Below are positions 18,721 to 21,778 of a DNA stretch of 64,000 nt, in pieces. Both the position numbers and the translations under genes were made by a program. How positions within the stretch are numbered: the stretch's first letter is position 1; each line of letters begins with the position of its first letter. Source of the stretch: Rhodospirillales bacterium. Lineage in GTDB: Bacteria; Pseudomonadota; Alphaproteobacteria; UBA828. Below the pieces are notes generated by a model. It had not been told where the DNA came from. It searched no databases and saw nothing but the letters and a program-made list of their open reading frames with translations. The stretch covers positions 1 to 64,000 of the forward strand of contig JAPPMY010000259.1 of assembly GCA_028818855.1 (NCBI GenBank), written 5' to 3'.

Positions 18721-19245
18721 ATGACAGCCGCGCCGGGCACCGCTCGGGCGCAGGCGCCACGCGGCCAGGGGCGGAGCAGCGCACGCCTTGCCTGCGTGCA
18801 GGCCCTCTACCAGATCGAGCTGTCGGGCCAGTCGGCGGACGCGGTGATCGAGGAGTTCCTGAGCCACCGCGCGGGCCACGAGATCGACGGCGAGCGCTAT
18901 GCGGCCCCCCACCGCCGCCACTTCGAGCGCGTCGTGCGGGAGGCTTCGGCGCGGGCCGGCGAGTTCGACGCCCTGGTGACGGCGACGCTGGCCGAGCGCT
19001 GGAGTCTGGAGCGTCTCGGCGCCGTCGTGCGTGCGCTCCTGCGCGCGGCCACCTGCGAGCTTGCGACCTGCCCCGACGTGCCGGCCCGCGTGGTCATCAA
19101 CGAGTACGTCGAGCTTGCGCGCGCCTTCTACTCCGAGCGGGAGCCGGCCTTCGTCAACGGCGCGCTGGACAGCCTCGCGCGGCGGCTTCGCGCGGCGGAG
19201 ATGGCGGACGGAGCGGACCATGGTCGGCCGGCGCAAGAGCGGTGA
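18721..19245 (+). CDS. nusB: Transcription antitermination factor NusB
   Basis: Binds boxA RNA with S10 during rRNA transcription antitermination. The 174-residue all-helical protein shows ARLACVQALYQIELSG at its start and the conserved VVINEYVELARAFYSEREPAFVNGALD near the end (quoted in part: VINEYVELARAF). It has a 20-residue Arg/Ala-rich N-terminal extension that is common in alphaproteobacteria. It begins 5 nt after ribH and overlaps thiL by 26 nt. Confidence 0.94.
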   Translation: MTAAPGTARAQAPRGQGRSSARLACVQALYQIELSGQSADAVIEEFLSHRAGHEIDGERYAAPHRRHFERVVREASARAGEFDALVTATLAERWSLERLGAVVRALLRAATCELATCPDVPARVVINEYVELARAFYSEREPAFVNGALDSLARRLRAAEMADGADHGRPAQER

Positions 19246-20209
19246 GTTCGACCTTATCGAGCGCGTCTTCCGGCCGCTGAGCCGCGCCGCCCCCGGCGCC
19301 TTCGCGCTCGGCAACGACGGCGCGCTGCTGACTCCGCCCGCAGGCGCCTCCCTCGTCGTCACCAAGGACGTGATGGTGGCGGGCGTCCACTACCCGGAGG
19401 GCGAGGACCCCGCGACTGTCGCCCGCCGGCTGCTGCGCGTGAACCTCTCGGACCTCGCCGCCATGGGCGCGGAGGCCAGCTCCTACGCGCTCGGCCTCGC
19501 GCTGCCGGAGGATGCGGACGATGCCTGGGTGCAGGCGTTTGCGGCAGGGCTCGCGCGAGACCAGGAGGCGTTCGGCGTCGCGCTGGTGGGCGGCGACACG
19601 GTGGCGGCGCGGGGACCTGCGGTGCTCTCGCTCACCGCCTTCGGCTGGGTGGCGGGTGAGGCCTGCCTCACCCGCGCGGGCGCGGGCGAAGGCGACGACA
19701 TCTATGTCTCGGGCACCATCGGCGATGCGGCGCTGGGTCTGCGGGCGGTGCAGGGCGACCTCCCCGCGCTCGCGGCGGAGGACCGCGCGGCGCTTGCAGC
19801 GCGCTTCCGCCTGCCCGAGCCCCGGCTCGCGCTGGGTGCCGCGCTCATCGGCATTGCCACCTGCGCCATCGACGTCTCCGACGGTCTCGTCGCGGACCTC
19901 GGGCACATCTGTGAAGAATCAGGAGTCGCGGCACGCGTCACGGCCGGCGCCGTGCCGTTCTCGGAACCCGCGCGGCGCGCGCTGGCTGCGGGGGAGGCGG
20001 CGGTCGCCGACCTCGTGAGCGGCGGCGACGACTACGAGCTGCTCTTCTGCGCGGCGCCGTCAGCGCGCGCTGTCATCGAGGCCCTGGGCCAGCGCCTCGA
20101 CCTGCCGCTGACCCGCATCGGGATCGTCGAGCCCGGCGCAGGCGCCACGATCCTGGGAGCCGACGGCGAGCCGCTCGCGCTCCACCGCGCCGGCTACACC
20201 CATTTTTAG
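19220..20209 (+). CDS. thiL: Thiamine-monophosphate kinase
   Basis: Phosphorylates thiamine monophosphate to the cofactor diphosphate. The 329-residue protein has the family N-terminus GEFDLIERVFRPL, the metal-binding VNLSDLAAMGA loop, the VGGDTV motif, and DVSDGLVADLGHI. The usual GDDAAV near residue 30 reads GNDGAL, so one of two acidic residues is Asn. The start lies inside nusB, the common arrangement. Last gene of the operon; a 12-bp hairpin starts 1 nt after its stop. Confidence 0.94.
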   Translation: MVGRRKSGEFDLIERVFRPLSRAAPGAFALGNDGALLTPPAGASLVVTKDVMVAGVHYPEGEDPATVARRLLRVNLSDLAAMGAEASSYALGLALPEDADDAWVQAFAAGLARDQEAFGVALVGGDTVAARGPAVLSLTAFGWVAGEACLTRAGAGEGDDIYVSGTIGDAALGLRAVQGDLPALAAEDRAALAARFRLPEPRLALGAALIGIATCAIDVSDGLVADLGHICEESGVAARVTAGAVPFSEPARRALAAGEAAVADLVSGGDDYELLFCAAPSARAVIEALGQRLDLPLTRIGIVEPGAGATILGADGEPLALHRAGYTHF

Positions 20210-20236: not shown

Positions 20237-20330
20237 TCGGGGTCCCTTGCGCGAAACCGGGAGCCGCGCGCCCAAGAGTAGCCTCGCGCCCGGCCTGCCC
20301 GACGCGATGACCCGGAAACTTCAATTTAAG

Positions 20331-20454
20331 GCGGCCTATACCGGCCTATTCCGGTCCATAGTGGCACATAATGGCACATAGTGGTCCAAAGTGGCCCAAG
20401 GGAGACGGTCCAAAATGGCTCATTCCGGCCCATAGCGGCTCACTCTGACCCCAA
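20331..20454. repeat. Array of about twelve degenerate 10-bp tandem units
   Basis: From 20331 the sequence repeats every 10 bases with GG at positions 3-4 of each unit: units start at 20331, 20341, 20351, 20361, 20371, 20381 and 20391, then after a 4-nt insertion (20401-20404) at 20405, 20415, 20425, 20435 and a decayed one at 20445. The consensus is close to NNGGYMCATA. The spacing is one helical turn. No gene covers it, and it lies between two convergent operons. It could be an array of protein-binding sites, for example the end of a lost transposon. Confidence 0.85.
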
Positions 20455-20740
20455 GGAGGCCCGTGAACGGAGAGCGAGCGACGCGCATGGCGCCGGCAGC
20501 GCCGCCCCAGGCCGCGCGAGAGCCTGCCGGGCGACAATTTCCCCCTCCCGTCTCCTTCGACCGCGCGCGCTCCGGGCCGCCCGGACGCGCGCATCCTTCC
20601 GTCCGCCACATGGCGCGATGATCGCGCAGGTGCCGGCCCCGCTGCACCGCACCATGGTTCGGGGAGTCGCGGTGCGCCAGAACGTGCCGTGCGCGTCAGG
20701 GCGTATCCATGCAAGACGGATAGCCGCTGGCGCTCCGTAC
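20455..20740. other. Intergenic stretch with no recognised feature
   Basis: About 286 bases between the decamer array and the stop of the ABC permease. Short open frames exist on both strands but have no ribosome binding sites or recognisable products. I see no tRNA, no transposase remnant and no convincing terminator. Confidence 0.5.
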
Positions 20741-21778
20741 CTAGTCGGGCGGCTTGGACGAGCGGCCCCTGTCTCGCCTCCTGCGCCTTCCTCCCCGCGG
20801 CTTCCTGGCGGCGCCGGACGTTCCGAACAGCGTCTGCCGGAAGGTGTCGTCGATAGCGACCGCGGCGATGAGCGTCACGCCGATGAGCACCTGCTGCAGA
20901 AATTGCGATGTGTCGGTGACGACCAGCCCGTTGCGCAGCACGCCCACGAAGAAGAGGCCGGCGACCACGCCCGAGATGCGGCCGATGCCGCCGGCGAAGG
21001 CCACGCCGCCGAGCAGCACCACGGTAAGCGCGTTGATCTCCAGACCCTGACCCGTGATCGGCGTCGCGGCGGCAAGTTTGGAGGCGAGCATCAGGCCGGC
21101 GAGGCCCGAGGCGATACCGACCTGGACGAACATCAGGAACTGCACCCGCTGAACCGGCACGCCCATGAGGAAGGCCACCCGCTGGTTGCCGCCAACGGCC
21201 TTGAGCCGCCGGCCATAGGGCAGCCGCTCGAGCACGAGAACCCCATAGATGATCGCCGCGGCCAGGATGAAGATTTCGAGCGGAATGCCACCGACCCGGA
21301 TCAGGCCGAGGTCGATGAAGGCGTCGGGCAGCCCGGCCACGGTTCGCCCGCCGGTGACGTAGAGCGCGAGCCCGCCCCACACGGAGAGCGCGCCCAGCGT
21401 CACGACGATCGAGTTGAGCCGCAGATAGCTCACGAGGATGCCGTTGATCACGCCGGCGGCAAGCCCCACGCCCAACCCTGCCGCGATGCCGCCCACGGTC
21501 GAGCCGGTATCGCGCATGATGAGCGCGCCGATGATGCCCGCGAAGCTCGCGATGGAGCCGACCGACAGATCGACCGCGCCGCAGATGACCAGCAGCGCAA
21601 GCGGGATCGACACGACGCCCAGCGCGGAGACCGCCTCGCCCACGTTGCGCGCGTTCGCAAGGGTCAGGAAATGCTCGTTCGCGAAGTTGAAGAAGACGAT
21701 CAGGATGACGAGTCCGACCAGAGTCCCGTTCCGGGCCAGCGCGAACTGGACTCTCCTGGCGAGTTCTGTCGTCGTCAT
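20741..21778 (-). CDS. ABC transporter permease, ribose/sugar (RbsC) type
   Basis: Inner-membrane permease of a CUT2-type sugar ABC transporter, 345 residues with about nine hydrophobic segments. The signature ICGAVDLSVGSIASFAG (about residues 65-81) and the later LLGGVAFAGGIGRISG are typical of RbsC-like proteins. The last 30 residues are strongly basic and cytoplasmic. It is the last gene of the binding protein-ATPase-permease unit; only one permease is present, as in CUT2 systems with homodimeric channels. Confidence 0.93.
   Translation of the reverse strand: MTTTELARRVQFALARNGTLVGLVILIVFFNFANEHFLTLANARNVGEAVSALGVVSIPLALLVICGAVDLSVGSIASFAGIIGALIMRDTGSTVGGIAAGLGVGLAAGVINGILVSYLRLNSIVVTLGALSVWGGLALYVTGGRTVAGLPDAFIDLGLIRVGGIPLEIFILAAAIIYGVLVLERLPYGRRLKAVGGNQRVAFLMGVPVQRVQFLMFVQVGIASGLAGLMLASKLAAATPITGQGLEINALTVVLLGGVAFAGGIGRISGVVAGLFFVGVLRNGLVVTDTSQFLQQVLIGVTLIAAVAIDDTFRQTLFGTSGAARKPRGGRRRRRDRGRSSKPPD

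Follow-up and report, generated by a model that had tools for sequence, protein, structure and literature searches.

The decameric array in the window, herein meaning the whole 64-kb stretch of Rhodospirillales DNA that was analyzed (64,000 nucleotides), is probably a pac-like packaging-start site bound by the small terminase subunit (TerS) of a gene transfer agent (GTA) that derives from a Mu-type phage and has its genes scattered over the chromosome. This agent is undescribed: no Mu-derived GTA was found in the literature searched, which is itself part of all literature. A terminase with its packaging site is the best reading since a TerS gene lies beside a helically phased array, the array type tracks the helix–turn–helix (HTH) of TerS, and the TerS units are probably controlled together with TerL, portal, and capsid genes. 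The whole set looks like a GTA, given that its virion genes are dispersed, under selection, and devoid of MuA; the arrays would hence be its start sites.

Architecture of the array in the window

The array occupies positions 20332–20455 and reads CGGCCTATAC CGGCCTATTC CGGTCCATAG TGGCACATAA TGGCACATAG TGGTCCAAAG TGGCCCAAGG [GAGA] CGGTCCAAAA TGGCTCATTC CGGCCCATAG CGGCTCACTC TGACCCCAAG. Block 1 (20332–20401, + strand) consists of seven decamers with the consensus YGGYCCATAR. It is followed by the 4-nt interruption GAGA (20402–20405, +) and by block 2 (20406–20455, +), which is composed of four good decamers (to 20445) and a weak fifth one (to 20455). GG is kept in 11 of the 12 decamers. The first-pass annotation had described about twelve 10-bp units with GG in eleven and a single 4-nt break, and this description holds. 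An AT-rich leader (tcaatttaagg; 20320–20331, +) lies just left of the array and has a similar counterpart (aatttatg) in most units of the genome.

The array is genuine and greatly exceeds chance expectation. At a period of 10, 68 of 114 positions are identical; 5,000 dinucleotide-preserving shuffles average 28.6 (SD 4.6) and do not exceed 47, so that the periodicity claimed from the bare sequence stands against shuffled controls. At periods of 9 and 11, the identity amounts to 35 and 33. Among all 124-base stretches of the 64-kb window, the array has the top period-10 score; its best 50-base score is 37, compared with an average of 22.2 (SD 2.4) and a maximum of 34 in 240 other 850-bp windows. 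A further period-10 match, at C45:5931, is poly-C and was discarded as an array.

The array is helically phased and non-coding, as had been proposed. It is flanked by thiL on the left (19220–20209, +) and by an ABC-transporter permease gene on the right (20741–21778, −), which converge on it and form the context outside of the unit. Within the unit, the array is adjoined by the remnant of a TerS gene (20456–20608, −), whose coding sequence is lost, at the place where the long units C24 and C200 hold a TerS gene. Next to it lies the relic of the TerS start codon (20609–20611, −; CAT on the + strand) in its conserved context GCGATSATSGCGCCATG, and further right a regulon motif (20645–20663, −) that reads CCCGAACCATGGTGCGGTG on the − strand. 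The same motif is found before TerL, portal, protease, and DUF5675 genes, and in the window it is likely an operator or promoter driving transcription toward the array. The unit in the window has lost its TerS gene by deletion, with array, motif, and start region remaining.

A family of array units

The whole genome (G000) was searched for the array by pattern and by DNA search, yielding 14 copies that are 74 to 100% identical. Their alignment exhibits a constant second landmark, CACCGCACCATGGT[C/G/T]CGGG, located ~240 to 790 bp to the right. The motif CCGGACCATGGTGCGGTGCAC is conserved herein, and behind it the array follows 3′ of a TerS gene of the Mu gp27 family or its remnant. A search based on the landmark added units with another decamer, GAGAYAARCC, at a similar distance from it. 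Altogether, 23 or more units were placed in the genome. They fall into two decamer types, are all intergenic, and all have the motif; unit counts are to be read as lower bounds. A unit measures 0.3 to 0.8 kb and contains TerS at most, with no integrase or satellite genes in the units read. In 12 of the 14 window-type units, the first block consists of exactly seven decamers. The break spans 3 to 4 nt in all window-type units except one, and four or five more decamers follow. The decamer consensus is specific to each genome, namely GGCCCATAGT in G000, GGCCCAAGGT in G015 and G017, and GGCACAATCC in G014.

The expectation that further copies exist and often lie between convergent genes was borne out by these units: among the 20 with both neighbors called, 11 are placed between convergent genes, 6 in tandem, and 3 between divergent ones. 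The array is most likely bound by a protein, as proposed earlier. Such an array might bind a TerS-like or another HTH protein and thereby regulate transcription or shape the chromosome at gene ends, which would suit the intergenic, often convergent sites and the direction of the motif toward the array. This regulatory or architectural role is nevertheless highly improbable, as the tandem and divergent placements have no consistent relation to promoters, and the linkage to a terminase gene that is controlled together with the packaging and virion set favors packaging.

Seven units of G000 (C228, C102, C202, C238, C78, C247, and C69) share 82 to 91% identity over about 450 to 540 bp. The shared stretch spans 75 to 165 bp left of the array and 40 to 60 bp right of the motif. 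These seven are a recent family that was copied together with its flanks. Given this family and the fact that most units are devoid of TerS, some arrays, and possibly most of the units without TerS, may be relics. Taken further, TerS-and-array units might have multiplied by duplication or other mobility and now be mostly dead, the one in the window included, whose array would be a former TerS site with no present role. Besides the missing TerS genes and the copied flanks, the presence or absence of a unit at thiL, which varies between species, speaks for this explanation. It is considered unlikely overall because array geometry, decamer consensus, and motif are kept across units whose remnants are unrelated, and because the GTA-like genes are under purifying selection.

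The comparison of orthologous thiL gaps, which had been suggested in order to recognize an insertion, covered the genus. The gap holds no visible unit in G014, G016, G019, and G020. In G015, a TerS unit is found 25 bp after thiL, and in G017, the motif lies 25 bp after thiL with a unit about 0.9 kb away. The empty gaps and these units of other form indicate that units are gained and lost over time. No other genome of the genus yielded a full-length match to the ABC permease neighbor, hence an exact empty site is not available for the unit of the window.

Two observations concern the surroundings of the units. In several species, a unit adjoins the ends of the hslU and urtE genes, with differing decamers: L142 in G017, L175 in G014, L184 in G015, and C24 and C200 in G000. 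In G000, the hslU flank belongs to one unit and the urtE flank to another, as if exchanged. In addition, palindromic, short REP-like repeats (GGTCGCTCGCGCCCGAAGGGTCGCGAGCGCGACAT) are common beside units, for example, right of C200 and around C289.

TerS and its match to the decamers

Three units of G000 (C24, C200, and C202) still hold a gene whose start adjoins the landmark and which extends as far as the array. This gene belongs to the Mu Gp27 family (Pfam, 1.1e-15) and to the PHROG family “terminase small subunit” (4e-20). In the long units C24 and C200, it encodes 200 residues and fills the space between array and motif. Many other units keep only the TerS start region, and C248 retains just the HTH part, as read from its sequence. 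In a structural model of TerS, only the HTH domain (residues 11–60) is predicted with confidence, and a profile search of the PDB with TerS gave nothing useful. Apart from a single MAG of the genus and a Caulobacter TerS of the prophage type, the scan of genome contigs for TerS returned nothing; viral contigs returned only prophage-type TerS.

The HTH and the decamers vary together. TerS proteins whose recognition helix contains N, A, or V after SRSA[VI] are accompanied by GGCNYA decamers (6/6), and those with G at this residue by GRGAY decamers (7/7). The residue of the recognition helix, thus, matches the decamer type at all 13 loci (Fisher's exact test, 1/1716 = 5.8e-4), a value to be read with the provisos that the loci are related and not fully independent, that the cut between clear and unclear arrays was set by the author, and that only TerS genes with a clear array were included. 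One of these loci, L092, contains a few GGGAT decamers beside its GGCACA ones. The two TerS proteins L087 and L092 of G014 are identical in their last ~35 residues and differ in both HTH type and array type, which suggests that the array follows the HTH. The covariation is indirect support for binding and not proof; a reading of the array by TerS is well supported.

A side observation was made in the FGRSSIKRLP group of TerS (L078, L084, L090, and relatives in G015, G017, G018, and G019). The C-terminal tails of these proteins repeat, for example, as SIPADPGESH, and tails of this type are what a 10-bp array translated in frame would give. In this group, the TerS gene has apparently incorporated the array.

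Regulon motif and scattered virion genes

Copies of the motif without a nearby array are located about 50 to 180 bp upstream of the genes for DUF5675 (C173), portal (C127), and head protease (C9), and the motif precedes TerL, portal, protease, and DUF5675 genes in other genomes as well. The head and tail set lies in three chromosomal loci, which share this one motif with the TerS units. C127 encodes TerL and portal, each with its own copy of the motif, the one of TerL having two mismatches. The operon on C9 comprises protease, major head protein, Gp36, tail completion protein, tube, a tape measure of 258 residues, DUF1833, an NlpC-like protein, J, and collar. C173 carries an activator, GemA, Gam, an S24 repressor, DUF5675, and a holin-like protein. 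The head, tail, packaging, and regulator genes were confirmed by family scans; the activator of C173 matches the PHROG “late transcriptional activator” (9e-15), with the Pfam family Mor just under the cut-off. We infer that this activator binds the motif and that the loci are under common control. In two species, the motif also precedes a conserved gene, MATQRQIEANRENARKSTGPRTEAGKAA... (L131/L204 at C45:12582 in G000; L127 at C126:10760 in G016), which has no Pfam or PHROG match and may be a further member of the regulon.

The common motif bears on two other explanations. The first-pass annotation had considered the array to be a remnant end or landing site of a transposon of the IS21, Tn7, or Mu type, for which the multiple copies with two conserved landmarks and the Mu ancestry of TerS could be adduced. 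This origin is extremely improbable: no transposase is contained in the units read, no inverted terminal repeats are seen in the unit alignments, and MuA (searched for as MuA-type DDE_2) is absent from seven of the eight genomes of the genus, G000 included. Moreover, the landmark on the right also stands before phage genes that are not mobile, and the array is partnered by TerS, a phage packaging protein, and not by a transposase. A transposon or MITE had also been suspected during the analysis from the two conserved “ends”; it was abandoned once the right-hand motif proved to precede DUF5675, portal, TerL, and protease genes.

The other explanation is a satellite or decoy, in which TerS-and-array units would make use of the terminase of infecting Mu-like phages or draw it away, instead of supplying the host's own particle. 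PICI and SaPI satellites are small elements with their own TerS and packaging site, and this pair of TerS and site is their hijacking device. True Mu-like prophages occur in G017 and G018. The explanation is very unlikely since the motif found in the units is common to the scattered TerL, portal, and head genes of the host itself, units and genes occur together in the genus, and the units read are free of integrase and satellite genes. A mini-Mu satellite as the main reading was likewise dropped, as the capsid, TerL, and portal of the genome itself are under the same motif.

Conservation across the genus

The capsid gene is present in all eight genomes of the genus with 90 to 94% identity and without stops, and was found in none of 14 other genomes of the order; the motif is confined to the genus, and thus has the same limit. 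The Mu-type portal also occurs in 8/8 genomes. In G018 (62% complete), the sole portal copy found belongs to a prophage contig; G017 has one portal of the scattered set and one of a prophage. The only MuA of the genus is in G017, in a separate, true prophage. All genus genomes are fragmented draft assemblies.

The loci are flanked by the same host genes in several species, as exemplified by rubredoxin-metE-[TerL-portal]-pyruvate carboxylase. The structural and packaging genes are without stops, and their synonymous divergence is like that of their host neighbors. The dN/dS ratios range from 0.08 to 0.57 overall, with 0.08 to 0.15 for the capsid and 0.13 to 0.25 for the portal; judged by these ratios, the capsid is under purifying selection. 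Among phages, the Pseudomonas transposable phages B3 and JD18 have the nearest capsids, with 39% identity.

Two genomes deviate from this pattern. G016 (L111, L119, L127, L135, and L252) contains capsid, TerL, portal, and regulators, and has no TerS (PF11985) match and no array at the sampled motifs; either the assembly may lack its TerS, or another gene may have replaced it. In the same genome, packaging genes and regulator and lysis genes are on one contig. The structural locus of G017 (L245, C87:36000-55976) has a gap between headX and DUF1833, where the genes running from gp36 to the tape measure region are missing, and the particle may be broken at these deleted tail genes.

Proposed packaging from the arrays

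From the genes and sites described above, the following mechanism is proposed. TerS, with its N-terminal HTH, would assemble as a ring of HTH domains. The DNA would be bent around this ring, and its decamers, one per helical turn, would meet successive HTHs; the repeat length fits such wrapping. In the next step, the TerL of C127 would be brought in by TerS and load chromosomal DNA into capsids from the C9 operon, starting at the array of the window and at the other arrays. The Mor/C-type late activator of C173 would act at the common motif and switch on all parts together. TerS supplied in trans by other units (C24 and C200) would read the unit in the window, whose own TerS gene is lost. We infer packaging from the array, and the bacterium probably makes virus-like particles that take up its own DNA at marked places, a behavior not ascribed to any known GTA.

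A more far-reaching proposal is that this Mu-derived GTA packages the chromosome from many TerS-specific intergenic start sites, that TerS variants and arrays coevolve genome-wide like a receptor and an uptake sequence, and that the marked regions are preferentially exchanged between cells. For this proposal in its full extent, we regard the balance as even. If true, a DNA-reading TerS with recognition arrays across the chromosome would make packaging, and therefore gene exchange, addressable, and a GTA could arise from a transposable phage of the Mu/B3 type. The coupled types of TerS and array would constitute a natural series for studying how the HTH of TerS reads DNA.

Comparison with known systems

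The units resemble PICI and SaPI elements in being small and in combining their own TerS with a candidate packaging site. They differ by their size of below 1 kb, by containing TerS at most and no integrase, and by the virion genes being in the same genome and under the same motif.

With the Mu-like and B3-like transposable siphophages (B3, JD18, and RcapMu), the system shares the gp27-type TerS, Mu portal, Gam, GemA, Gp36, the Mor/C-type late activator, and the lambda-like tail tip J. In contrast to them, it lacks MuA in G000, its genes are scattered among host genes, the tape measure has only 258 residues, and the arrays are dispersed. The contiguous prophage with a MuA transposase by which a Mu-like phage is recognized was not found in G000.

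As in the pac sites of the phages SPP1/SF6, P22, and P1, a recognition region of direct repeats is located at or beside the terS gene. Those sites occur once per phage genome, whereas more than 20 are found here per chromosome, with strictly 10-bp units and a genome-specific consensus. In TerS rings, the HTHs are arranged in a circle, and it has been proposed that DNA wraps around such rings (PMC4737164). The pac repeats of SF6 had little effect on binding by the HTH domain (PMC4737164), hence the reading of repeats by TerS should not be taken for granted.

The system also resembles the GTAs (RcGTA, CcGTA, DsGTA, and BaGTA; PMC11841831), in which phage-derived head, tail, and packaging genes are likewise selected, vertically inherited, and distributed over several loci, without genes for replication or transposition (for the latter, MuA-type DDE_2 was searched here). 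These traits were recognized here as intact and selected genes (partly deleted in G017), vertical inheritance in a conserved host context, and several loci that share one motif and are probably under common control. Published GTAs are said to need no packaging initiation site and to have a putative TerS without a DNA-binding domain (PMC11841831, PMC6854486, and PMC7947584), a trait that is usual and not definitional, and that is absent here. Unlike in the known GTAs, head and terminase are of the Mu/B3 type and not of the RcGTA type, and TerS retains an HTH that is linked to sequence arrays.
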